IMG/VR virus record: IMGVR_UViG_3300028895_000274 | Span: 1 to 33,632 of that record | Length of the DNA: 33,632 bases | DNA from: a virus | Strand: one strand, 5' to 3' | Shown here: piece by piece, positions 10,352 through 22,846 of the stretch | Layout: each line of letters starts with the position of its first letter | How positions within the stretch are numbered: the first letter of the stretch is position 1 | Notes under the pieces: generated by a model | Seen by the model: the letters and a program-made list of their open reading frames with translations, nothing else | The model's database searches: none | What the model was told of the DNA's origin: nothing | Translations under genes and position numbers: made by a program

Positions 10352-10375
10352 GCTCCTACTTACTGTGAGGTGAGT

Positions 10376-11683
<1,308 letters not shown>

Positions 11684-12638: not shown

Positions 12639-12668
12639 GTTATACCTGACGGGACATGCCGGCACTCA
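12639..12668 (-). promoter_or_regulatory. candidate promoter (TGAG-N20-TATAAC)
   Basis: On the minus strand TATAAC (12644-12639) lies 23 bases ahead of the ATG at 12615, with TGAG beginning 24 bases upstream of it. The same pair at the same spacing occurs ahead of the 22926-23810 gene. It resembles a -10-type element. The phage's own sigma-like factor could use it, but two cases are weak evidence. Confidence 0.25.
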
Positions 12669-13604
12669 GCCAATACCGACCGTAGCCGCGTAAGCAGCCA
12701 AGGACAAGCCAGCCTTCCCGGTATTGAACACCGGCTCACTGAAACAATCCATTACCACGTACGCTGCCTTGGCTTTGTCTCCTGTCGTTTTCAACAGTAT
12801 CACGTTGCAGTAACCGAGTACGTTGCGTCGCACGGATTCTGCGTCCCTGTCCTCAAGTGAGCGTAGTATACCGGAGATCGTCTTCCAGTTCTTACCGCCC
12901 ATCAGCGCACGGCACAATTCAATCACCTTGGACTTCTCTTCCGCTGTGCGCTTGGCGATCGCCAGCTGGTGCTTCGGTTCCGCGTCAATGACAGCTTCCA
13001 AGATTGACAATGCTATGCCGGGTGAACCCATCGCGTCGTCGGCGATCTGCTGTAGTGCTTGCTCCACCACAGTTGCGTGTTCACGCTTGCACACGCTTTC
13101 CAGTAGATGTAGGATACCCTCCTCCGTGCGCGGCTTCAACTCAAACGTTGTACAGCGACGTTTGAGTGTTGGCTTCAGCTTCTCTGGTTCCGTGGTAGCA
13201 AACACGAAGTACGCGTACTCCGGACCGTCCTCCACTGTCTTGAGCAATAGCTCCTGAGCCTGTGGAGTCAGGCCATGACACTCGTCCAGTAACCAAACGT
13301 GGCACGCACTCTCGAGAGGAACCAACCTTGCTCGTTCTTGTATCTCCCGTGCAGCGTCGATTCCACGGTAGTCGGAAGCGTTACACTCGTGAAAGTCGCG
13401 TCCATGACACTTGAGCCATTTTGCGATGATGTAAGCCAGTGTGGTCTTACCGCACCCGGACTGTCCCGTCAGCAAGAATGCTTTGGGTATCTTGTCCCGG
13501 TGTCGCTTCAACACGCGACGAACAGCTTCTACCACGTCAGCTTCTGCAACCGGCGCGAACTGCTTCAGCGTCCTCGGGCGATAGCGTTCAGCAAGCGATG
13601 CCAT
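12666..13604 (-). CDS. AAA+ sliding clamp loader ATPase
   Basis: This 312-residue RFC-small-subunit/gp44-like ATPase starts ASLAERYRPRTLKQF, typical of RFC and gp44 proteins. Walker A is GQSGCGKTT (47-55), Walker B is WLLDECHG (Asp107, Glu108), sensor 1 is FVFATTEPEKLKPTLKRRC with the RRC variant of the SRC arginine finger, and a helical lid and collar follow. It should open and load the clamp encoded at 22110-22826 onto primed DNA. No separate gp62-like gene is recognised. ATG 13604 has AAGGAGGAAAGCCAG upstream and overlaps the 13565-13765 gene by 40 bases. Confidence 0.9.
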   Translation of the reverse strand: MASLAERYRPRTLKQFAPVAEADVVEAVRRVLKRHRDKIPKAFLLTGQSGCGKTTLAYIIAKWLKCHGRDFHECNASDYRGIDAAREIQERARLVPLESACHVWLLDECHGLTPQAQELLLKTVEDGPEYAYFVFATTEPEKLKPTLKRRCTTFELKPRTEEGILHLLESVCKREHATVVEQALQQIADDAMGSPGIALSILEAVIDAEPKHQLAIAKRTAEEKSKVIELCRALMGGKNWKTISGILRSLEDRDAESVRRNVLGYCNVILLKTTGDKAKAAYVVMDCFSEPVFNTGKAGLSLAAYAATVGIG

Positions 13605-13765: not shown

Positions 13766-14010
13766 AAGTCCTCCTTCCTCAGGATCGTGTCTTTGAAGGG
13801 GAGTGCTCCTTTCTTGTGCATGCGCACAATGTAGTTGTAAACTCCGAGCCACTCCTTCGACCACTTTTGGTTGTACAGCCATTCCAAGTAGTCGTCGGGT
13901 ACATCCTTCAACGGTTTACCTTCGTGTTTACCGAACGGGAACAGCGTCTCGTCCGTGCACCCGCGTGGACCGTACCCTCTGTGCGTCTTTGCATGTATTG
14001 TTCTAGGCAT
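13762..14010 (-). CDS. DUF3820 family protein
   Basis: The 82-residue product contains LFPFGKHEGKPLKDVPDDYLEWLYNQKW, the signature of DUF3820 (a small domain with F-G-K-h-x-G-K and a V-P-x-x-Y-L-x-W helix) found in many phages and some bacteria. Function is unknown; in phages the gene is often beside replication genes, and here it follows the polymerase by overlap (14003-14010). The N-terminus MPRTIHAKTHRGYGPRG resembles the MPRTKHK start of two other proteins in this window. Confidence 0.75.
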   Translation of the reverse strand: MPRTIHAKTHRGYGPRGCTDETLFPFGKHEGKPLKDVPDDYLEWLYNQKWSKEWLGVYNYIVRMHKKGALPFKDTILRKEDL

Positions 14011-15382
14011 CGGCTATCCTCACTTTCTCCATGTCAAACCAGCTACCACCAACCGGCGCGAGTTCAGCTTCCACTTCCAGCGGCACGATAATCCACTTCC
14101 ACGCTTCGCGTATATCCACGCACATGATTTGCTGTGCCTGCTGTAACACGAGTCCTACTTCATCCGGCTGGTAGTCGTTGACAATGGAGTCGTGTATCTG
14201 TCCTATGATGCATGACTCCATCTTCTCGCGTTTCAGCCAGCGGTTCAGTTGAATCAACGACCACAGTAGACAGTGAAATGCGCTACCTTGGATCGGCCGA
14301 TTCCACGCTTCGTTGCGCTTCATAGGTTCATAGCAACGGAAGCCGGTTAGCATATCCACGTAACCGTGTCGCAGATAGAACTTGTACAAGTCCTCACGCC
14401 ATTTGTTGTACACCGTGTAACGCTTGTGCCAGAAGTCGTGCTCCACAGCTTCGATGTGCTTCTCAAACTTCTTGTAGGTCTTGATACCCTCGTCCCGTAA
14501 GTGTTCCATCAGCGGCACACCGTCTGTTGTCACCAAGTCGCGCTTAGTGATGTCGTTCCACAGATTCTTTGCACAGTCGCGGAAGTAGTCTCCGTAGAAC
14601 TCCGGGAACACGAAACTGTTCTTGGAGCAGTCACGTATTGGTTTGTTCACCTGTCCACGCTTCAGTAGGTAACACTCTTCCGCCATGTCTCTGTGCATGT
14701 CACGCTTCGGGTCAGTGACATCAGCTATCAACGCTGGGTCGTGGTGGTAGCAGCAGGAGACCATCACTTCCAAGCGGGAGTAATCCAGTTCACCGAGACG
14801 TCCACGCTTGCGACTACGCTTGTGAACACGCGGTATGAAGCAGCGCCGGACGAGTTCAGCTTTCTCCAAGTTGCGGCGATCCATGTTCTGGAAATTGTAA
14901 TCCTCGCTACTGGAACGGTAGGTGCGCGCCGTATGTAACTGGAAGAAGGGATGCATGACACCGTTGATCGTCTCTGTCAATATGCCTTGCAGTCGTGTGC
15001 GCGTACTCACAAGTTTTTTCCACTTCGAGTAACGCTTGGTGAACGTCGTGCCTATTGCAGACAATGCCGCGTCATCCACCTTCGGCAATCCGCTCTCCGT
15101 CTCTCGTTCATAGTCGTGCTTCAGTTCGGTGAACAGCACCCGGCGCAGCTGCGTGTCACTAGCTAACTTGAACTTCTGTGCACCATAGAGACGGCGCCAC
15201 AGCTTGACTTCCGAGCAACGGTCAAGACGTTCTTCCATCACGGTAATGGCGTTGCTGAGCTCATCTACCTGTTGCTCGGCGAAGTCCACGTCTACTGTGA
15301 TACCAGTAGCTTCTACTTCAGCTAGCGTGACTACTCCGTCGTGCAGCAGCTTGTACGCGTCCTTACGTGTAGCTTTGATCAA
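14003..15382 (-). CDS. polA: family A DNA polymerase, polymerase domain only
   Basis: The 459-residue product has the three PolA motifs: A in GELDYSRLEV (catalytic Asp about 200), B/O-helix IRDCSKNSFVFPEFYGDYF (Arg250, Lys254, Tyr263-Gly264), and C in IGQIHDSIVND (HDS about 397-399). Motif C has Ser where Pol I and T7 polymerase have Glu. The 3'-5' exonuclease domain that normally precedes this module is in another gene (16092-17327), separated by an MTase gene. TTG 15382 is chosen because AGGAGG lies nine bases upstream; an in-frame TTG at 15424 has poor spacing. This is the likely replicative polymerase working with the phage clamp and SSB. Confidence 0.9.
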   Translation of the reverse strand: MIKATRKDAYKLLHDGVVTLAEVEATGITVDVDFAEQQVDELSNAITVMEERLDRCSEVKLWRRLYGAQKFKLASDTQLRRVLFTELKHDYERETESGLPKVDDAALSAIGTTFTKRYSKWKKLVSTRTRLQGILTETINGVMHPFFQLHTARTYRSSSEDYNFQNMDRRNLEKAELVRRCFIPRVHKRSRKRGRLGELDYSRLEVMVSCCYHHDPALIADVTDPKRDMHRDMAEECYLLKRGQVNKPIRDCSKNSFVFPEFYGDYFRDCAKNLWNDITKRDLVTTDGVPLMEHLRDEGIKTYKKFEKHIEAVEHDFWHKRYTVYNKWREDLYKFYLRHGYVDMLTGFRCYEPMKRNEAWNRPIQGSAFHCLLWSLIQLNRWLKREKMESCIIGQIHDSIVNDYQPDEVGLVLQQAQQIMCVDIREAWKWIIVPLEVEAELAPVGGSWFDMEKVRIADA

Positions 15383-15391
15383 TCGCAGTGT

Positions 15392-15412
15392 CCTCCTTTT
15401 CTTGAGCGCCAG
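15392..15412. repeat. 21-bp direct repeat at polymerase gene start
   Basis: This stretch matches 16104-16124 at 19 of 21 positions. It contains the AGGAGG that serves the polymerase start, and the frame through it (LALKKRR) mirrors the exonuclease C-terminus (LALKQRR). The two copies bracket the MTase gene. Confidence 0.85.
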
Positions 15413-15414
15413 CT

Positions 15415-16095
15415 TCAAAGCCAAGTTCCTATGCCGCTTCTATTGGTCTTGTACAATGAGGTCACGGAAACGTGGTTGCTGTGAAATACGGCTTCCGCAA
15501 ATGCTTTCGGTGTAAGTGAGCGTATACCAGTTTGGTTGGGACCACTCGCCTTCCAGATGTGATTCTTATCTACTGATGCCGAATTCCATCTTAGCTTACG
15601 TATCTTTGCAGGCATGCGGAAGCCGTTCCCAACCCATAGGCATGTGTTCTTGCTGTATGTGTCACCAAATTCGTACGGGTGAAATGTAAAATCAGGTGGG
15701 CGCATGTGCCGACTAAGTGCACCGACAGGATTCTCCAGCATGTAAGGAGCCCCGGACCAACTCGCCATTATTTCACACGCAAGGAATAACTCCATACAAT
15801 CCATGAGTAAGCGATTCCCTTTGGTTAGAAAGTCCCTTCTGCCAGCATTGCTGACGTGTGTGCATGGGGGAAACGCAAAGAATATCCCTACGTGGCGAGA
15901 CATATGCCTTGGTAAGATAAAGCTGCGTGCGTCCCCCCATAAGTAAGTCACATTCCCTTCACGTCGTGGTTTCCTTATGCTGTGCCGTATGTCCACACAA
16001 ACACAAGGAAAACCAGCATCGGCCCAAGGCATGACCATAACGCCGCTGAAATCGCAGAAGGACACTACGTATGGTAGTGTATGCTTTGTCCTCAT
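15415..16095 (-). CDS. C5-cytosine-methyltransferase-like protein (short)
   Basis: The 226-residue product has a SAM-binding Rossmann start with a VSFCDFSGVMVMPWADAGF motif I, VCVDI motif II, the catalytic-loop-like FAFPPCTHVSNAG (Cys78) and MLENPVG (Glu121), corresponding to C5-MTase motifs IV and VI. It is shorter than typical C5-MTases, with no clear target-recognition domain or motif VIII. It could methylate cytosine or be a divergent enzyme of the same fold. Codon use looks more AT-rich than the neighbours. It lies between the two parts of PolA, overlaps the exonuclease stop (ATGA), uses that gene's AAAGGAGG as ribosome binding site, and ends RSGIGTWL, sharing a C-terminal pattern with three neighbours. 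Confidence 0.75.
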   Translation of the reverse strand: MRTKHTLPYVVSFCDFSGVMVMPWADAGFPCVCVDIRHSIRKPRREGNVTYLWGDARSFILPRHMSRHVGIFFAFPPCTHVSNAGRRDFLTKGNRLLMDCMELFLACEIMASWSGAPYMLENPVGALSRHMRPPDFTFHPYEFGDTYSKNTCLWVGNGFRMPAKIRKLRWNSASVDKNHIWKASGPNQTGIRSLTPKAFAEAVFHSNHVSVTSLYKTNRSGIGTWL

Positions 16096-17327
16096 TTCAA
16101 CTGCCTCCTTTGCTTGAGCGCTAGCCGGTATTCCAGCAACGAGTCCATGCCATTGTAGAGAAGTAACTCATCCATATCCACTTTGTCTATGCGATTGAAA
16201 GCGTTCGCACCACCCGGTCCTCGGCTTTCCAAGTATGGCTCGATATGGCTGGAGTAGTCCAGTATACCGAACTGAACGTAGGCTTGAAACTTGAGTCCTG
16301 TGATACCAGACCGGTTGTCCAGTACATGAGAAGCTACCATTGAATCCCATACCCATCCACGTACTCTCGTCCCGAGACAGACCCGGCTCCACGCTTCCTC
16401 AAACTTCAGGTTCTGTGCAATCTTCTTGATATGCCTGTCGCGAAGCAGGCGGACGAAGGCACTCTCGACAGCGTGGGTCATAGGAAAGGCTACGGCTTTC
16501 GTTTTCGAGTATGCTACAGACGCACTCACGATCCTGTGCCCATCCCTGTGCGGCTTCAGCCCGGTTGTCTCATAGTCAAACGCGATAACCTTCGGCCGTC
16601 TCTTGTCCACGAGCCACGTTAGGAAGCGGACAACCCGGTCTTCGTCACGGATAATCCTCACGCATTCACGCTCGTCCTCCCATGCCGGCAGTGGTTTGTC
16701 CACCAACTTGAGAGCACGCTCCAAGTCCTGGCTGAATATCGTGGCGGCACCCGGTGGACTGCTACTGCGAATGATGTAAGCCGGGTGAAATAGCGGACAT
16801 ACCCATGCGTTGACTTCCCTGTCCGGGATATGCCATCCACGCCAGCGGCTGATACCTCGCAGATTACGCTTCCATCTGTGACCCAGGAAGCAATCCACGG
16901 CGATCCCACCAAACAGTAGGATGACGTGCGGCTGGAATTCATTGATTACCTTCCACGTATGTGGCCGGCAAGCCTCCAGTTCCACCCGCGTTGGCTTGCG
17001 GTTGTCTGGCGGACGACAGTTTATCGCGTTCAGTTTGATGCAGTCGCGATCCAAGTCAAACCCAATCGAACGCATCTCCCTACGGACAAGCCTGCCGCTC
17101 TTGCCTACAAGTTGAACACCACGCTCGTCCTCCACGCGACCGGGAGCCTCCGCAATCACCAGCACCTTGCGCTTGCCTTCGCCGGATGGTTTCATGTTTG
17201 GTGACTCGCATGTACGGAACAGCTTGCAGTCTACCCGGCATAGCTTCTTGCGCCGGTTGGTGTTGCGATGCCGTGGCGATGCCGTGGTGTTCTTTTCCGG
17301 CCAAAAGAAGAACTGCGTGTTGGTCAT
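16092..17327 (-). CDS. uracil-DNA glycosylase superfamily / 3'-5' exonuclease fusion
   Basis: The 411-residue product has two domains. Residues 25-210 are a family 4/5-type uracil-DNA glycosylase: IAEAPGRVEDERG (60-70), LNAINCRPPDNRKP, LLFGGIA and LFHPAYIIRS. Cys at 30, 34 or 40, 104 and 120 could hold the family's 4Fe-4S cluster. Residues 240-411 are a DnaQ/PolA proofreading exonuclease: IAFDYETTG (Asp251, Glu253), QNLKFEEAW (Glu in place of the exo II Asp), WDSMVASHVLD, and YNGMDSLLEY (Tyr391, Asp395). It ends at LALKQRRQLK, where the polymerase domain would continue in related phages. The glycosylase may act as a uracil or modified-base sensor at the fork; that is inference. Confidence 0.88.
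   Translation of the reverse strand: MTNTQFFFWPEKNTTASPRHRNTNRRKKLCRVDCKLFRTCESPNMKPSGEGKRKVLVIAEAPGRVEDERGVQLVGKSGRLVRREMRSIGFDLDRDCIKLNAINCRPPDNRKPTRVELEACRPHTWKVINEFQPHVILLFGGIAVDCFLGHRWKRNLRGISRWRGWHIPDREVNAWVCPLFHPAYIIRSSSPPGAATIFSQDLERALKLVDKPLPAWEDERECVRIIRDEDRVVRFLTWLVDKRRPKVIAFDYETTGLKPHRDGHRIVSASVAYSKTKAVAFPMTHAVESAFVRLLRDRHIKKIAQNLKFEEAWSRVCLGTRVRGWVWDSMVASHVLDNRSGITGLKFQAYVQFGILDYSSHIEPYLESRGPGGANAFNRIDKVDMDELLLYNGMDSLLEYRLALKQRRQLK
16104..16124. repeat. 21-bp direct repeat at exonuclease gene end
   Basis: Partner of 15392-15412 (19 of 21 identical). On the minus strand it encodes the last residues of the exonuclease and supplies the AAAGGAGG for the MTase start. Confidence 0.85.
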
Positions 17328-17344
17328 ACGAACTCCCGTATACC
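17324..17344. repeat. 21-bp direct repeat at end of GT-A gene
   Basis: This stretch matches 18172-18192 at 19 of 21 positions. On the minus strand it encodes GIREFV-stop and includes the ATG of the glycosylase/exonuclease gene in the overlap. Confidence 0.85.
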
Positions 17345-18175
17345 CTTATGACGTTGCCGTTTACCGTGTTCCGCTAGCTTCTTCCACGCGACTTTGATGT
17401 TTGCTACGTGAACCTTACCGTCCTCCGCTACCGGGAATCCCGGCCATGCGCTTGGATTGTTGGTCTTCTCCGTGACGGTGACGTAGTCCGGATACTTGTC
17501 AGCCAGATACTGGCATACCTTCTCCAGCAGCGCCGGTGTCCTGTAACGCGAGACACCACCGGTTACGTTGATGGTCTGATCAAATGCGTGAGCCATCAAC
17601 ACGTAGGTATCGTATCCCTTGGAGAGTAGTTGGATGTTAATGTAATGCTGATGCAGCAGCCAAGGTTCGAAGTCGCTCATTACGCAACCCTCGCGTACGT
17701 AGGCTTCACGATTGAGCACAAAGCATGAGCCTATCGCGCCGGGTGACAGCACGTCCTTGTCCTTGCTCAATCCGTTGACGAACGTGTGGCTAATGCCGAT
17801 AGCTCCGACGTTCTTCTTGCGTGTAAACCGCGCAACCAGCGATAGCATACGTGACATGTCTTCGTGCGTGGAGTTCCTCAGCTTACCGTCTGCACCGCGT
17901 GTCTTGAACACCAAGTCATCGTCCATGATGAACACGAAGGGCACCCGCGCCGTCTGCATCACCCAGTGTCGCTGTGAAGATACATACGGTGGCACGTCCG
18001 CCGGCATAGCAATGACATCCCATCCCTTGCACGTCGCGTAGTAGTCGCGTGCCTCGTTACGTGGAACGACAACTGCCGTAGAGCGTCGCCAGTTGCGCGG
18101 TAACTGTTCAAGAGTTACCACGCGGTCTGCCCGGCGCGACGAGTTGATGAATATCTGTATGGTGTTTGCATTCAT
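17324..18175 (-). CDS. GT-A glycosyltransferase, TET-associated (TAGT) type
   Basis: The 283-residue product starts IQIFINSSRRADRVVTLEQL, continues VVVPRNEARDYY and has the metal-binding FVFIMDDDLVF (Asp85-87). This layout is that of GT-A glycosyltransferases, in particular the TET/JBP-associated group known from phages, which put sugars on hydroxymethylated pyrimidines in DNA. Later GSCFVLNREAYV and EPWLLHQHYINIQLL are consistent with an acceptor/catalytic region. No TET-like gene is in the window. It overlaps both neighbours by ATGA and ends HKGIREFV, nearly the same as the end of the preceding radical SAM protein. Family placement is probable; the DNA substrate is inferred. Confidence 0.75.
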   Translation of the reverse strand: MNANTIQIFINSSRRADRVVTLEQLPRNWRRSTAVVVPRNEARDYYATCKGWDVIAMPADVPPYVSSQRHWVMQTARVPFVFIMDDDLVFKTRGADGKLRNSTHEDMSRMLSLVARFTRKKNVGAIGISHTFVNGLSKDKDVLSPGAIGSCFVLNREAYVREGCVMSDFEPWLLHQHYINIQLLSKGYDTYVLMAHAFDQTINVTGGVSRYRTPALLEKVCQYLADKYPDYVTVTEKTNNPSAWPGFPVAEDGKVHVANIKVAWKKLAEHGKRQRHKGIREFV

Positions 18176-18192
18176 ACGAAGTCCCGTATTCC
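18172..18192. repeat. 21-bp direct repeat at start of GT-A gene
   Basis: Partner of 17324-17344 (19 of 21 identical). It encodes GIRDFV-stop of the SPASM protein and includes the ATG of the GT-A gene. Confidence 0.85.
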
Positions 18193-19179
18193 TTTCCGTC
18201 GCTTGTAGTATTCCCCTGCGTGGAACGGGTCACCGCTACCACGATTGTGGGTGATCCATACTTCCTCCAGTTTCTTGAGCGCGTTCTTGGTGCGCGGCCA
18301 TGGTTCTGGTAACAGACCAAGACGGAACCCTCCGTTGTAGTCACAGCGATAGCAAGGCACGAATGACCGGTTACCTGAAGACAGTAGCTTACGCGCTGCG
18401 CCGAAAAGTTCACCGTTCCAGATCTCTTCGAGTGAGCCGCTGGTCGGGAATGACCCCATGATGCACTCGTGTCTCCAGTCCAGACAGCATACCGGGATCG
18501 TTCCGTCGTGGTGCACGACGATCTCGCGGAAGGGGCGCGAACACTTCTTCTGAAGTGGTGCACGCAGTGGCTCCACACCATACTTGTGCTTCAGTACTTT
18601 GGCGTTCGCGTTGCCTGCGTGGTTCAGTATCTTGCGCGCAGCGCGTTTACCGGACTCCGCTCCAAGGTTCCGCATCAGCACAATCACGCGCACGTGCTGG
18701 TTGTGGTAGTGATAGGGATTGAAGCTGTGCCGGTAGTAGTCATAGACCTGTATCGTGTTGTCGATTGCCTTGGCTTCTTTCGCCAGTTCCACCGTCTCTT
18801 CCTGGTGTGAGTACATGTCCAGGATCAGTATGTTCAGCCCATCCGCGAACAGTTGCGCTACATACCCGGCGCCACACTTACGCGGCACAATACCGTTACT
18901 GGTCAGTTGGAGTTGGGCCTGCGGTAAGTTTGCCCGGAACGCAATAATCGGCATCGCAAGATTGTGGAACAGCGTAGGCTCTCCGTGCATAGCGAACTCC
19001 ACCCGCTTCCGGTCAAATCCCTTCCACTTCCCCAGCCCTACAGCCAACTCAGTTACTAGTTCCAGCGGCATCAACTTTGGCTTCCGCGCCTGCTTTCCCA
19101 GCGAGTGAATTCCACAGAAGTCACAGCACCGGTTGCATCCCTGTACAAGTTCCACTTGGATGTTGTTCGGTAATGGCAT
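18172..19179 (-). CDS. radical SAM enzyme with SPASM domain
   Basis: The 335-residue product has the radical SAM cluster motif QGCNRCCDFCGIHS (Cys15, 19, 22; CxxxCxxC), the SAM-contact FAMHGEPTLF and LQLTSNGI, and a C-terminal SPASM-type cysteine set: KKCSRPF, IPVCCLDW, ECIMGSF and PCYRCDYN (about 213, 231, 232, 239, 276, 279) for auxiliary Fe-S clusters. The SPASM layout is typical of enzymes modifying peptides or other large substrates. Here the gene is coupled to two glycosyltransferases, so a role in making or attaching a DNA modification is inferred. ATG 19179 has GAGGTGAACA upstream. It ends RRKGIRDFV. Confidence 0.85.
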   Translation of the reverse strand: MPLPNNIQVELVQGCNRCCDFCGIHSLGKQARKPKLMPLELVTELAVGLGKWKGFDRKRVEFAMHGEPTLFHNLAMPIIAFRANLPQAQLQLTSNGIVPRKCGAGYVAQLFADGLNILILDMYSHQEETVELAKEAKAIDNTIQVYDYYRHSFNPYHYHNQHVRVIVLMRNLGAESGKRAARKILNHAGNANAKVLKHKYGVEPLRAPLQKKCSRPFREIVVHHDGTIPVCCLDWRHECIMGSFPTSGSLEEIWNGELFGAARKLLSSGNRSFVPCYRCDYNGGFRLGLLPEPWPRTKNALKKLEEVWITHNRGSGDPFHAGEYYKRRKGIRDFV

Positions 19180-19187
19180 TGTTCACC

Positions 19188-20216
19188 TCACAGCCAACGG
19201 TTGATACCAGTGTTTCCTGAGGCGTCCTGAACGGATGCTGAGCCGTCCTGCCAGGACTGGAACAGGGACTTATACGTTTTCCCGATGCGACGGTGTGAGT
19301 GGGCATGCAGGATACTCTCGTACCGAGGTCCGTTGTCCGTGTCTTCCCAGTCCTTACGTGCCCGGCGCACAGCCTGCCGCAGTTCCTTGGCTGTGGAGAC
19401 CGCGATGTAATGATCCCCCGGCTTCAGTTCATCCTTGGAACCTGTCGCCCATCCCGCGTTGCAGATGAGCGTGAGACCGTAGTCCATTGCTTCAAGGAAC
19501 GTGTACTGCGTGCCGCCTCCGTCCATGTGAATCGTGGACATGTCCACAAGCGCACACGCACCGGGATAGACATCGGCTGGTGTCTTGAAGCTGCCCTTGT
19601 AACAATCCATCTTGCGAATCCCGCCCAGTTCTTCGTAGTCGTAAATGTGATTGACATAGCCGGTGTGTATCTCCACTCCACAGTCCGCGTCCAGTATCAG
19701 CTTGGTGTTCTTGTCGAAGTCCACCCGGCTGGTTGCCACCACACGGTTACCGGACAGTATCCCGTCACTCTCGCGCTTGTACGGATGCAGCACCACCTGT
19801 CGATGCTGGAGGAACTGCGAACAGTCTGCCCGGGCAACACTGTCCCGGATGAACACGAACAGAGCCGTGCGCGAAATAAGAGACAGCCAGCGCCGGGTCT
19901 TCTTCTTGCGAATCTCCGTAGGGTCGTGGATTGTCACCACCAACCTGTGCTCCCGCGACAGTGACCGCAACGTTTCCAGTATGGGATCCGGTGTCTTTTC
20001 ACATACGGCATTGTCCAAGTGAACGACGTCGTACTCGTCGAGCTGATCCGCGCTTTCCAGCACGTCAACCCACTTACTCGCGCCGGCAGGCTTATCCACG
20101 CTCAGCGAGTGAACGTCGATGCCCTTCGTTGCCTCCAGTGCATGTAGCATGTGGCGCTTGTACGTAGGCCAGCCTCCGTACTGACACCACCGTAAACTCA
20201 ACAGTCCTACCTTCAC
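19188..20216 (-). CDS. GT-B glycosyltransferase (GT4-like)
   Basis: GTG 20216 has GGAGGAAGCT upstream and overlaps the 51-residue gene's stop (GTGA). The 342-residue product has an N-terminal Rossmann half (KVGLLSLRWCQYGGWPTYKRH, DVVHLDNAV, LVVTIHDP) and a nucleotide-sugar-binding C-terminal half with MDGGGTQYTFLEAMDYGLTLI, the GT4-type loop before the Glu-x-x-x region. It ends in a helix and the tail NTGINRWL. In phages such enzymes glycosylate modified bases or, less often, host surface or tail proteins. Its coupling to radical SAM and TAGT-type genes favours DNA. The sugar donor cannot be read from sequence. Confidence 0.8.
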   Translation of the reverse strand: MKVGLLSLRWCQYGGWPTYKRHMLHALEATKGIDVHSLSVDKPAGASKWVDVLESADQLDEYDVVHLDNAVCEKTPDPILETLRSLSREHRLVVTIHDPTEIRKKKTRRWLSLISRTALFVFIRDSVARADCSQFLQHRQVVLHPYKRESDGILSGNRVVATSRVDFDKNTKLILDADCGVEIHTGYVNHIYDYEELGGIRKMDCYKGSFKTPADVYPGACALVDMSTIHMDGGGTQYTFLEAMDYGLTLICNAGWATGSKDELKPGDHYIAVSTAKELRQAVRRARKDWEDTDNGPRYESILHAHSHRRIGKTYKSLFQSWQDGSASVQDASGNTGINRWL

Positions 20217-20368
20217 AGCTTCCTCCTTACCCAGAGCGGACCGACCCGCAGCGCCCACTTGTATGGTGCGGCCGCGTCACGCACCGGGTCACGTTTCCAT
20301 ATAGACACCCGCCAGTTGTGCCATCCCAACCAGACGATGTCACCTACCACTAAGTATAATACCTTCAT
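20213..20368 (-). CDS. small hypothetical protein
   Basis: ATG 20368 lies inside the end of the SplB-like gene (29-base overlap) and the stop overlaps the GT-B start (GTGA). The 51-residue product is Trp-rich and basic (MKVLYLVVGDIVWLGWHNWR ... LRVGPLWVRRKL), possibly a small beta barrel (SH3/KOW-like turn VVGDIVWLGW). Family unknown. The ribosome binding site, GAGGAG, is 12 bases away, a little far. Confidence 0.5.
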   Translation of the reverse strand: MKVLYLVVGDIVWLGWHNWRVSIWKRDPVRDAAAPYKWALRVGPLWVRRKL

Positions 20369-21788
20369 CCAACCAGCGCTCCTCGTACTCGGATGGTGCG
20401 TACCTGAACCGCAAGTTGCCGTCGTTGTCCAATCCGACCGGTAACAGCTTTCCATGGAAGTAGTTCCGTGGATTCGCTGGACTGCGTAGGTTGTTCCACT
20501 GTTCCTGTAGTAGCAAGCGGAACGTAAGGTTCGCCCGGTCAGCTTCGCAGCGACTGGACAGACCTACAGCCAAGTTCATGTATGCGCGTGTTCCCTCGTT
20601 CAGGTATGGGACGTCGTCCGGGTATACCTCGTTGAACGTCAGGTACTGGGGTTCACCCGTCTCGTGATACTTGCGCCGGCACTCCTTCAGGTGAAACGTA
20701 AGCTGATGCCGCGTCCAGTTCTCGACTCCCCGGTTGTTAGGGAAGTCGTCCGGCATACCGCAACAGGAACCGCTCATGTTCAGTTCCTTGAAGTCAGGGT
20801 CGCTGCAGGCAAATACCAGATCGTTCTCGACACAGAACTCGTACACTGTCCTGACGTGTTGTTCCTTCACCAACCTGTTCAGTCTCATGTAACCGCCACG
20901 TTCGCTTGGACTGAGCCGTTTGAAGTAGGACTGCAGGTCGTCAACGCCGACCAGCTTCGCAATCCACTCGTACCGTTCCCGCATACCAGTGTTACACCGC
21001 ATGTCCATAGCGAAGAACTCCATGGAGACCGCACGTATGCCGGCTTCAAGCGAACGCTCCAGTAAACTTTCGATGCCGTGTTCGCTGATGCCGATGATGT
21101 ATGGTCGCAGTCGCAGGATTGTCCAGTACCCCATCGCGCTCAGCCGTCGGATGGCTTCAATGCGCTTGGAAGGTGACGGCACACCGATCTCCACCAGCTT
21201 TGCTTTCTCGTCGTCGCCGGTGATAATAGACACTTGGAACGCGAAGTTCTGTTGATCCGCGTATCGCTCGAACGTGCGGAGGTACTGCTTCTTGAATACC
21301 GTTCCTCCCTTGAAGCTGAACAGACACGGATAGTCCATCTCCCCCAGCGCGTCTATCAACTTGAGACCATCGCGGTTCGCTGCTTCAAACTGGCAGAACG
21401 GGTCAGCCAACCCACCCCAGTGCAGCAGGAACTTGTTCTCATAGAAGAGACGGTACATCACGCGGCCGAGACCGCCCTTCGTCCCGCGTCCCTGCATGTT
21501 AGCAATCATCTTGTCCACGTTCACGGACTTCAACGTGATCTCCCGGATGGCGGGATTGTTCGACTTGAAGAAGTACGCGAAGCAGTACAGACATCCAAGG
21601 CTACAGTAGTTGTACTGGTCGAACGTCAGCGGCATGGAACAGTCCGGTATCTCCGAACTGATCCGCGGGGACAGGTACTTACCTGTGCCGGGTCCGCACT
21701 GACACCCGGCGTTTCCTTCCACCCACGCGCGACTTTCCCTTACGATATCTTCGCTTAGCGAAAGTGAACATTTGCGCTTCGTCCTCAT
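20340..21788 (-). CDS. radical SAM enzyme, SplB/DNA-photolyase-like (COG1533 type)
   Basis: The 482-residue product has a radical SAM motif YNYCSLGCLYCFAYFF (Cys62, 66, 69). It is followed by the layout of the spore-photoproduct-lyase-like group: HWGGLADPFCQFEA in the place of the G-T-x-T-D-P-Y-Q motif, VSIITGD, VPSPSKRIEAIRRLSAMGY and RPYIIGI. Extra cysteines (about 29 and 31, and MSGSCCGMPDD) may hold another metal. Spore photoproduct lyase acts on thymine in DNA, so a nucleic-acid substrate is plausible but not shown. It is longer than typical members, with about 150 additional C-terminal residues. The start at ATG 21788 overlaps the previous gene by 110 bases; no better in-frame start was seen. 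Confidence 0.82.
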   Translation of the reverse strand: MRTKRKCSLSLSEDIVRESRAWVEGNAGCQCGPGTGKYLSPRISSEIPDCSMPLTFDQYNYCSLGCLYCFAYFFKSNNPAIREITLKSVNVDKMIANMQGRGTKGGLGRVMYRLFYENKFLLHWGGLADPFCQFEAANRDGLKLIDALGEMDYPCLFSFKGGTVFKKQYLRTFERYADQQNFAFQVSIITGDDEKAKLVEIGVPSPSKRIEAIRRLSAMGYWTILRLRPYIIGISEHGIESLLERSLEAGIRAVSMEFFAMDMRCNTGMRERYEWIAKLVGVDDLQSYFKRLSPSERGGYMRLNRLVKEQHVRTVYEFCVENDLVFACSDPDFKELNMSGSCCGMPDDFPNNRGVENWTRHQLTFHLKECRRKYHETGEPQYLTFNEVYPDDVPYLNEGTRAYMNLAVGLSSRCEADRANLTFRLLLQEQWNNLRSPANPRNYFHGKLLPVGLDNDGNLRFRYAPSEYEERWLDEGIILSGR

Positions 21789-22110
21789 ACACGATCATCC
21801 CTTCTTCAAGTGCTTCCAGGAACAGAGTTAGCATGTCCAAGCGATAGCAGCACTGCTCCACGTACTGTGTTACTGAGAAGTACTTGCGGAACAGTTCCGT
21901 CGCTTGTTCAGTAGGGAACACCAGCTTCACGCTTCGCGCCGCAACTCCCTGTACAGGTGGTTGCTCACCAGTGTAACGCGGAATTGGCTCTGGTTCCAGT
22001 AGGTGTTCCTCCAGTTCGCGTAACTCGCGTTGGGTGGTCTTACCCTTCGCTGCCTTGCCGAACCGCTCTACGCGTGAACGTCGGCCACCAGTGAATGAAC
22101 TGATTCCCAT
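21679..22110 (-). CDS. hypothetical protein coupled to the sliding clamp
   Basis: ATG 22110 shares its A with the clamp stop (TGATG), so translation is probably coupled. The 143-residue product has a basic N-terminus (GGRRSRVERFGKAAKGKTTQRE), an acidic helix, a central VKLVFPTEQATELFRKYFSVTQY-type domain and a Lys/Arg-rich C-terminal tail that lies in the 110-base overlap with the radical SAM gene. Position beside the clamp invites comparison with T4 gp62, but I see no sequence support. Unknown function. Confidence 0.6.
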   Translation of the reverse strand: MGISSFTGGRRSRVERFGKAAKGKTTQRELRELEEHLLEPEPIPRYTGEQPPVQGVAARSVKLVFPTEQATELFRKYFSVTQYVEQCCYRLDMLTLFLEALEEGMIVYEDEAQMFTFAKRRYRKGKSRVGGRKRRVSVRTRHR

Positions 22111-22826
22111 CAGCTGGCCACCGGTGTCAGCGCCCAAAGGAACTGTCCACCCTGACTTATCACTACGGGACCGCCGTCGCTCAGACCGAGTTCCGGTGCC
22201 TCGTCCTTCTCCCCGAACGTCAGCACCTGCAGCACGGCGGTCAGGAACTCTCCATACACTTCCGTGCGCATGTCGTCAGCTTCTACTTTGCCAAGTGTCA
22301 GCTTGAACTGCTGTGCGTCTTTGGGGCTGCTCTGCGCCATCACGGTTCCACCGGCTACGCCGAGGAACACGCTCTTACTGCGAACGAGATTGATGTGATA
22401 CAGTAGATCAGCTACCTTGCTCTCCTTCAGCGTGAGCGTAGTCTGTATGCCCTTCGACAGCTTCTCGGCAGCGACACCCGGTTTTTCCAACGCGGTCGGT
22501 ACTTCCTTTGGTTCCAGTAGCTGACAGCGTATCATCCCACGTCCTCTGCGCTTGACTGTGAGGCGTGACTCGCTAGGCTCCAGTGACACCGGTCCCTCCG
22601 CGTCACCAAGATACTTGCACAGCAGACCAAGGTCGCCGATGCCAAGTGTGGCTTTCTTTGCGTCCGGCACTTCGACCGCGCACATGAGGTATACCGTGTT
22701 ACTCAGGTCGATCGCTTCAACGTGTGCTGTGCCGTCGTCAAAGACCAACAGGCACTCTTCGATCTTTCCACCAAGGAAAACACGCTGGAGCATACTCGCG
22801 ATTGCGTTTCCATGTTCAGTCTTCAC
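22110..22826 (-). CDS. DNA polymerase sliding clamp (gp45/PCNA-like)
   Basis: The 238-residue product matches the gp45/PCNA-type clamps in size and pattern: AIASMLQRVFLGGKIEECLLVFDDGTAHVEAIDLSNTVYL as the first half-domain, an LGIGDLGLLCKYL helix, and a second repeat ending FLWALTPVAS. GTG 22826 has GGAGGGGACA directly upstream; the upstream in-frame TTG is part of that site. The presence of a gp44-like loader supports the call. It should tether PolA, and in T4 the clamp also contacts the late sigma factor, of interest given the sigma-like gene at 30331. A hairpin terminator lies just upstream. Confidence 0.82.
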   Translation of the reverse strand: MKTEHGNAIASMLQRVFLGGKIEECLLVFDDGTAHVEAIDLSNTVYLMCAVEVPDAKKATLGIGDLGLLCKYLGDAEGPVSLEPSESRLTVKRRGRGMIRCQLLEPKEVPTALEKPGVAAEKLSKGIQTTLTLKESKVADLLYHINLVRSKSVFLGVAGGTVMAQSSPKDAQQFKLTLGKVEADDMRTEVYGEFLTAVLQVLTFGEKDEAPELGLSDGGPVVISQGGQFLWALTPVAS

Positions 22827-22846
22827 TGTCCCCTCCAATACGCACG

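Follow-up and report, generated by a model that had tools for sequence, protein, structure and literature searches.

The window analysed here is the whole of a 33.6-kb virus record from an uncultivated phage (IMG/VR record IMGVR_UViG_3300028895_000274; 33,632 nucleotides), which is possibly a fragment. On its minus strand, running from a sliding clamp gene to a clamp loader gene, lie genes for an SplB-like radical SAM enzyme, a GT-B glycosyltransferase, a radical SAM enzyme with a SPASM domain, a TET-associated glycosyltransferase (TAGT), a uracil-DNA glycosylase (UDG)-exonuclease protein, a C5-methyltransferase-like (C5-MTase-like) protein and a DNA polymerase. A first-pass annotation had proposed the first six as a DNA hypermodification system; all six frames were confirmed where it had placed them, on the minus strand, and they mostly overlap or nearly touch. 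The main feature beyond that annotation is a short C-terminal tail, read from the predicted proteins, that is shared by four unrelated members of the cassette and looks like a hook for the clamp. The features are as follows, from clamp to loader:

22110..22838, minus strand: PCNA-fold sliding clamp, 242 amino acids (AlphaFold2 model, Foldseek and VIA-align); the proposed docking platform
21679..22137, minus strand: small conserved protein with a basic C-terminus, between the clamp and the SplB-like gene
20340..21788, minus strand: SplB-like radical SAM enzyme without SPASM domain; PF04055 below cut-off, CxxxCxxC, no tail
19188..20258, minus strand: GT-B glycosyltransferase, tail TGINRWL; PF13524 weakly, DGGGTQYTFLEA motif
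18172..19179, minus strand: radical SAM/SPASM enzyme, tail KGIRDFV; PF13186 and PF04055 over cut-off
17324..18175, minus strand: TAGT-family DNA glycosyltransferase, tail KGIREFV; PF20691 (E 5.4e-12), phrog_842 (E 6.1e-22)
16092..17327, minus strand: UDG and 3'-5' exonuclease half of a family A DNA polymerase; PF03167, PF01612 (DNA_pol_A_exo1), phrog_17
15415..16095, minus strand: C5-MTase-like gene on an optional insertion, tail SGIGTWL; phrog_757 'DNA methyltransferase' (E 7e-54)
14003..15424, minus strand: polymerase domain of DNA polymerase A; PF00476 (E 3.6e-36); the true start is probably near 15382
12666..13604, minus strand: clamp loader small subunit, RFC/gp44-like; phrog_5846 (E 4.1e-60)

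The peptide G-I-x-x-[FW]-[VL]-stop ends the GT-B, SPASM, TAGT and C5-MTase-like proteins, which belong to unrelated families. When all 373 window frames of at least 50 amino acids were scanned for G[ILV]xx[FWY] with at most two residues following at the end, four frames were found, all of them in the cassette. In the GT-B, TAGT and C5-MTase-like proteins the tail comes after the region that each has in common with its compared relatives; among GT-B relatives, the protein in locus L013 stops before the C-terminal extension and that in L008 has a different end. The tail codons differ among the four genes, and the SPASM and TAGT tails are alike also as DNA, so that those two may share an origin. 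PMC7225939 gives the canonical PCNA-interacting peptide (PIP) box as QXXhXXaa, with known deviations. The tails fit its h-x-x-a part: h and the first aromatic residue are present in all four, and the second aromatic position is V or L. Judged by sequence, the tail thus looks like the core of a PIP box and is a putative clamp hook.

The proposed docking partner, the product of 22110-22838, had no match among Pfam or PHROG models. Its AlphaFold2 model, built with a seven-sequence alignment that included six homologues from related loci, had a predicted local distance difference test score (pLDDT) of 89.9 and a predicted template modelling score (pTM) of 0.87. Foldseek placed PCNA at the top (E 6.5e-13), and the 50 matches listed comprised 46 PCNA and four bacterial DnaN chains. 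Against Haloferax PCNA (3ifv_C), VIA-align gave a Z score of 23.3 and a root mean square deviation of 2.4 over 220 residues. The homologue in L043 gave a weak match to the DnaN C-terminal domain (E 0.006, below cut-off). On the structure model, the protein is a PCNA-fold sliding clamp with the two-domain clamp fold, and the earlier guess of a clamp gene was right.

To follow the tail beyond the window, we used seven other phages in which clamp, SplB-like, TAGT, SPASM, UDG/polymerase and loader genes occur together (L041, L042, L043, L054, L059, L101 and L106; the clamp of L106 is cut in its locus and was seen in L117/L118). A scoring matrix was trained on the four window tails only, with levels set against 10,285 unlabelled frames, and frames sharing the same last 60 residues were counted once. 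At the top 1% level, 7/8 SPASM and 5/8 TAGT proteins of these held-out clamp phages carried the tail, compared with 0/52 and 0/48 in loci where no clamp was detected within about 10 kb; at the 5% level the counts were 7/8 and 6/8 versus 6/52 and 1/48. The SplB-like, UDG-exonuclease, polymerase A, loader and clamp proteins of the seven phages yielded none at the 1% level. In L046, a fragment without upstream sequence, a different glycosyltransferase precedes the SPASM gene and ends in TTGVNKWLK. In a small tree of 11 rows with long branches, the SplB-like genes from clamp phages group as a single clade (support 100), whereas on the SPASM tree their SPASM genes sit in two or more supported positions; the tail thus tracks the clamp and not the descent of the enzyme. 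Their TAGT genes occupy two places, which the tree does not force apart. Going by these trees, an enzyme seems to acquire its tail on entering a phage that has this clamp.

A second set of phages was assembled with an SplB-like profile, which returned 46 loci, of which 18 further distinct phages with a clamp were used. The slot was defined as the genes between the SplB-like gene and the next UDG/polymerase gene. The slot count left out loci of previously examined phages, loci with near-duplicate SplB-like genes and loci without a clamp frame of at least 100 amino acids (L113, L115 and L120 among them), as well as minus-strand, open or under-100-amino-acid frames. At the 1% level, 16/61 slot genes were tailed compared with 4/222 other plus-strand genes (Fisher P 9e-9), and 11 of the 18 phages had at least one tailed slot gene. 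The tailed proteins include known DNA-modifying families: an amino acid:DNA transferase (ADDT) in L123 (PF18724, E 8e-11), a protein in L128 resembling 5-hydroxymethyldeoxyuridine (5hmdU) kinase (PF18748, E 6e-4, below cut-off), a glycosyltransferase in L134 with a beta-glucosyltransferase PHROG match (E 2.5e-6) and, outside the counted slot, an N6/N4 DNA methyltransferase in L149 (PF01555, E 8e-29). Also tailed were a phosphatase and P-loop kinase fusion in L123, a low-molecular-weight phosphatase in L149, and a B12-binding radical SAM enzyme in L124 together with its 56% identical relative in L139. Within one GT-B family that no Pfam model matches, the members in L046, L124 and L139 carry the tail and the member in L009 does not; L009 has no detected clamp.

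Several slots hold further enzymes. B12-binding radical SAM enzymes, 47-56% identical and representing a further radical SAM class, occupy the same slot in L106 (5607-7226), L124 (11604-13289) and L139 (11435-13066). The long slot of L149 (12601-17610) contains ADDT, amidoligase-like, low-molecular-weight phosphatase, P-loop and N6/N4 methyltransferase genes, three of them tailed but not the ADDT gene, and looks like an undescribed modification pathway. In the more distant SplB/clamp phages L135, L136 and L137, slot genes end in other shared aromatic tails (..GWF and ..KWF; ..TYW and ..AIW; ..SNWW and ..HGWW), which in L137 include the end of the ADDT gene and are perhaps another docking peptide.

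Next, the candidate modification enzymes of the window were examined by domain searches, which upheld the SPASM and TAGT assignments of the first-pass annotation over cut-off and, with matches below cut-off, the radical SAM nature of the SplB-like protein and, weakly, the GT-B assignment. The SplB-like enzyme reached 27.8 bits against PF04055 (cut-off 29.5), carries CxxxCxxC at residues 62-69 and weakly matched a PHROG of DNA repair photolyases (phrog_9252, E 3.5e-5); the nearest NCBIfam models were PA0069 (45 bits, cut-off 360) and Rv2578c (39 bits, cut-off 430), and the PDB set contained no sequence match at E 0.1. We take it to be of the COG1533 type. Orthologues that are 50-60% identical were found in the seven other clamp phages. 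The GT-B protein matched PF13524 at 15.4 bits (cut-off 25), and its DGGGTQYTFLEA motif is, we presume, that of a GT4-like enzyme. The SPASM enzyme has both the CxxxCxxC and the SPASM cysteines; its NCBIfam matches are weak and mixed, and its closest solved structure is BtrN (E 1e-6), which presumably oxidises an aminocyclitol. The TAGT reached 46.5 bits against PF20691 (cut-off 27.5) and keeps the DDD motif, but the ED motif of ten aligned relatives is absent; a pattern search did not find ED in L042 and L101 either, where DDD is retained.

The company kept by SPASM relatives in other phages places the family in a DNA base modification context. A single-protein search gave 15 distant loci, and a profile search gave 190 viral relatives, from which 80 loci were retained. 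At least one relative lies in a genome contig, that of a metagenome-assembled genome; INPHARED phage records gave one weak match each for the SPASM enzyme and the TAGT, whereas the clamp had no match there within the E limits applied. The SPASM enzyme belongs to an abundant phage family. Across the whole records of the first 15 relatives, TAGT was found in 11 (9 over cut-off), TET in 5 and a thymidylate-synthase fold in 8; TET and the synthase fold never occurred together, two records had neither, and none of the 15 matched the C5-MTase model PF00145. After rows more than 90% identical were dropped, 56 SPASM genes remained (L106 counted twice for its two SPASM genes), and their company within about 10 kb was the synthase fold in 30, an SplB-like gene in 11, TET in 6, SplB and TET in 2, SplB and synthase fold in 1, and none of these in 6. 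This company of TAGT, TET, synthase-fold and SplB-like genes, together with the ADDT and the weak 5hmdU DNA kinase match in the sister-phage slots, supports the first-pass proposal of DNA base hypermodification, and the cassette very probably encodes enzymes that decorate DNA bases.

Two members of the proposed system fared differently. The UDG-exonuclease frame 16092-17327 and the polymerase frame 14003-15424 match consecutive parts of phrog_17 (477-828, then 831-1235), and in L042, L043 and L116 a single frame covers both halves, one directly after the other; the supposed glycosylase/exonuclease of the modification system is therefore half of a split family A DNA polymerase and belongs to replication. 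The C5-MTase-like gene is absent from the sister contigs L001 and L003, which otherwise match the compared window at 99.9-100% and in which 40 bp stand in for 753 bp (window 15382-16134); a 21-base sequence, with two differences between its copies, recurs at both edges of the insertion. The encoded protein reached only 10.5 bits against PF00145 (cut-off 22). Since the gene is missing from these sister strains, the cassette comprises four core candidate modification genes (SplB-like, GT-B, SPASM and TAGT) and one optional gene, and the earlier view of the methyltransferase as the necessary base activator finds no support.

In nine loci (L054, L059, L106, L112, L121, L123, L124, L128 and L139), the slot is followed by frames of 1110-1171 amino acids that carry a UDG domain at the C-terminus, do not match the polymerase half of the window and probably encode another replication protein. 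A G[ILM]xNF motif lying 17-20 residues from the end of such frames (L054, L106, L112 and L128) was considered as a clamp motif of the polymerase and rejected, because these frames close with the UDG domain, the motif comes immediately after the aligned stretch of that domain and the window polymerase half does not match the frames; the motif may be the last UDG helix. L025 (424-5794) has the same replication backbone, and by eye it carries 7-deazaguanine-modification-like genes upstream of the polymerase (QueC-like, and FolE-like with an apparent intein) and a longer, DnaN-like clamp. Elsewhere in the window, 1118-2017 encodes a caspase-domain protein (Peptidase_C14, E 1.6e-9) on the plus strand, opposite to the cassette, and the SSB-like gene 10376-11683 has C-terminal internal repeats (window 10375-10885, from secondary BLAST matches).

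The reading that we favour, and consider likely, is that this is a replication-coupled base hypermodification cassette, whose enzymes would be tethered by PIP-box-like tails to the phage's PCNA-like clamp. Its direct support consists of the shared tail, the PCNA fold, the co-occurrence of tail and clamp, and the tails on known DNA-modifying families in sister phages. In the proposed sequence of events, the RFC-like loader would put the clamp (22110-22838) on DNA; the tails would dock the GT-B, SPASM, TAGT and, in this strain, C5-MTase-like proteins on it; and base modification would take place behind the fork, on newly made DNA. First, a pyrimidine would be made reactive, either by the SplB-like radical SAM enzyme or by some unseen or host activity; this pyrimidine is most likely thymine, to which the ADDT and 5hmdU-kinase-like genes of sister phages point, and the activation step is possibly radical-based. 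The TAGT would then add a sugar, the SPASM enzyme might alter the sugar or the base, and the GT-B enzyme might add a second sugar or extend the first.

Several observations weigh against tethering to the clamp. The glutamine of PIP position 1 is absent, with R, R, H and N standing there in the C5-MTase-like, SPASM, TAGT and GT-B proteins, respectively. The tail is also absent from the polymerase, clamp loader and SplB-like proteins of the window, so the motif is not demonstrable on a canonical clamp client. At the 1% level the L101 SPASM, the L041 TAGT (2%) and both L106 TAGTs were missed, one of the latter ending in KITEYF, which is PIP-like by eye. Clamp absence was judged only within the stated distance, and independent contrasts on the SPASM tree comprise three clamp/no-clamp pairs only and cannot reach significance. 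Seven of the 18 further phages lack a tailed slot gene; L119 and L122 have no slot gene at all, and L116, L121, L133, L136 and L137 do (TAGT ends in L116/L133 are GMSAFLKSRQS or TNTLKRFF, unscored and PIP-like by eye). The ADDT genes of L137 and L149 and the B12 radical SAM gene of L106 are untailed. For T4, a 2026 paper (PMC13216743) reports that the level of alpha-glucosylation is set mainly by expression and not by clamp contact.

The tail might instead dock the DNA-modifying enzymes on some other common partner, such as the small protein 21679-22137 as a scaffold, SSB, or each other, which we regard as unlikely. In the window the tail is found on modification enzymes only and not on the polymerase, loader or SplB-like protein, as such a partner would allow, and the small gene is itself widely conserved with the cassette, with a homologue in L041 and in 13/18 further clamp and SplB loci. 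Yet the tail fits the PIP core, the clamp has the PCNA fold, T4 offers a clamp precedent, and tailed genes occur in L131 and L139, where the small gene was not recognised. It is most improbable, and largely refuted, that the tail is a by-product of the ribosome-binding sequence of the downstream gene. Another start does lie within about 35 nucleotides after all four tailed genes, and the KG codons (AAAGGA, AAGGGT) are Shine-Dalgarno-like; however, the GT-B and C5-MTase-like genes have ribosome-binding-like sequence, AGGTGA or AAAAGGAGG, after the stop. Moreover, the conserved I, F/W and V/L codons are unlike Shine-Dalgarno sequence, the UDG-exonuclease end overlaps the next start yet has no tail, and sister-phage tails vary in sequence and in trailing length.

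That the target of the glycosyltransferases and radical SAM enzymes is a protein, a peptide or a surface sugar rather than DNA is very unlikely, if slightly less so than the ribosome-binding origin. Pathways that act on peptides and surface sugars commonly include SPASM and GT4-like folds, and the weak, mixed NCBIfam matches of the SPASM enzyme would suit such a target. Against it, TAGT/phrog_842 is a DNA glucosyltransferase family (PMC13390438), SPASM relatives adjoin TET or synthase-fold genes, and the slot of sister phages holds ADDT and a 5hmdU-kinase-like gene.

Clamp tethering, the favoured reading, has its closest parallel in T4, where alpha-glucosyltransferase (AGT) binds the sliding clamp gp45 (PMC13216743) and gp43, gp55 and gp33 bind gp45 via C-terminal peptides (PMC2988020). 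In T4, as proposed here, a phage DNA glycosyltransferase binds its own phage's clamp. T4 AGT ends in CFKEQFDIITK and not in the gp43/gp55-type SLDFL[FY], so the parallel is functional, with no shared motif; the window differs in that a single C-terminal peptide is common to four enzyme families of one phage and to further families in relatives, with a radical SAM enzyme among its bearers. No clamp-tethered hypermodification beyond T4 AGT was found among the literature matches listed, from which subscription papers mostly fell outside scope. Compared with PCNA and the PIP box, the likeness lies in the clamp fold and in the hxxa part of the motif (PMC7225939), and the window tails differ in lacking the position-1 glutamine, in ending in V or L and in lying at the extreme C-terminus.

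As in the known TET/TAGT and hydroxymethylase/TAGT cassettes, TAGT stands here beside DNA-modifying partners, and SPASM relatives lie inside such cassettes; the window differs in having an SplB-like gene, also present in the TET cassettes L004, L006 and L007, and no TET or synthase-fold match. In T6-like phages, a second glucose is likely attached by the TAGT (PMC13390438). Known thymidine hypermodification, as described in PMC6449724, runs through 5hmdU and a 5hmdU DNA kinase. Sister phages share with this pathway of M6, ViI and phi W-14 an ADDT or 5hmdU-kinase-like gene in the slot, whereas the window lacks an ADDT match and instead combines sugar enzymes, radical SAM enzymes and tails. With spore photoproduct lyase (SplB), the SplB-like enzyme shares the radical SAM type with CxxxCxxC, and it has the weak photolyase match; the window enzyme differs in that its closest curated models score far below cut-off, in the lack of a PDB sequence match and in orthologues that travel with modification genes.

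Finally, we searched for a hydroxymethyl source beyond the cassette. As the first-pass annotation had noted for the neighbourhood, TET and thymidylate-synthase folds gave no match, here in the window or its 39-kb sister, and neither did ThyX or ADDT; these records may be incomplete. A usual, though not universal, lack of a hydroxymethyl source in this phage group is suggestive only, as records may be fragments. We tentatively raise the possibility that the SplB-like enzyme, which is bound to this clamp lineage, provides a third, oxygen-independent route to an activated DNA pyrimidine, replacing TET and nucleotide hydroxymethylases and feeding an exchangeable set of enzymes that ride on the clamp (for sugar, amino acid and methyl transfer, kinases, and radical SAM enzymes of the B12 and SPASM classes). 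In its favour, 23 SplB-group records, the largest of 188 kb and three from phage types already covered, contained one synthase fold and no TET, with a TET model that matched nowhere in that scan, controls included, and matched other phages in separate scans; the ADDT records G055 (109 kb) and G059 (51 kb), among the 4/30 group records with ADDT, had no TET, synthase fold or ThyX; and an SplB-like gene lay within about 10 kb in 1/31 synthase-fold loci versus 13/25 others among the 56 SPASM genes, SplB presence being partly due to search construction. Against it count ThyX in 8/30 group records, synthase-fold matches in L043 and L059 (a further one is in L143), and the co-occurrence of SplB and TET in L004, L006 and L007. 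In the synthase-fold genes of relatives, the position that we take to discriminate dCMP from dUMP hydroxymethylases aligns to neither N nor D.

It is an open question by what means phages modify a large part of a genome that grows fast and yet spare the host's DNA; a transferable clamp-docking tail, borne by many unrelated base-modifying enzymes, would, if true, answer it for one large phage group. In the window itself, the recent change is the C5-MTase-like insertion, which near-identical sister contigs lack and which is already tail-bearing. The tail can serve as a sequence tag for unknown DNA-modifying enzymes and already flags families without Pfam match; if the reading holds, it would also suggest a way of aiming DNA-modifying enzymes at newly copied DNA. 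Should the SplB route be true as well, the replisome of these phages would be a modular DNA-decorating assembly line.

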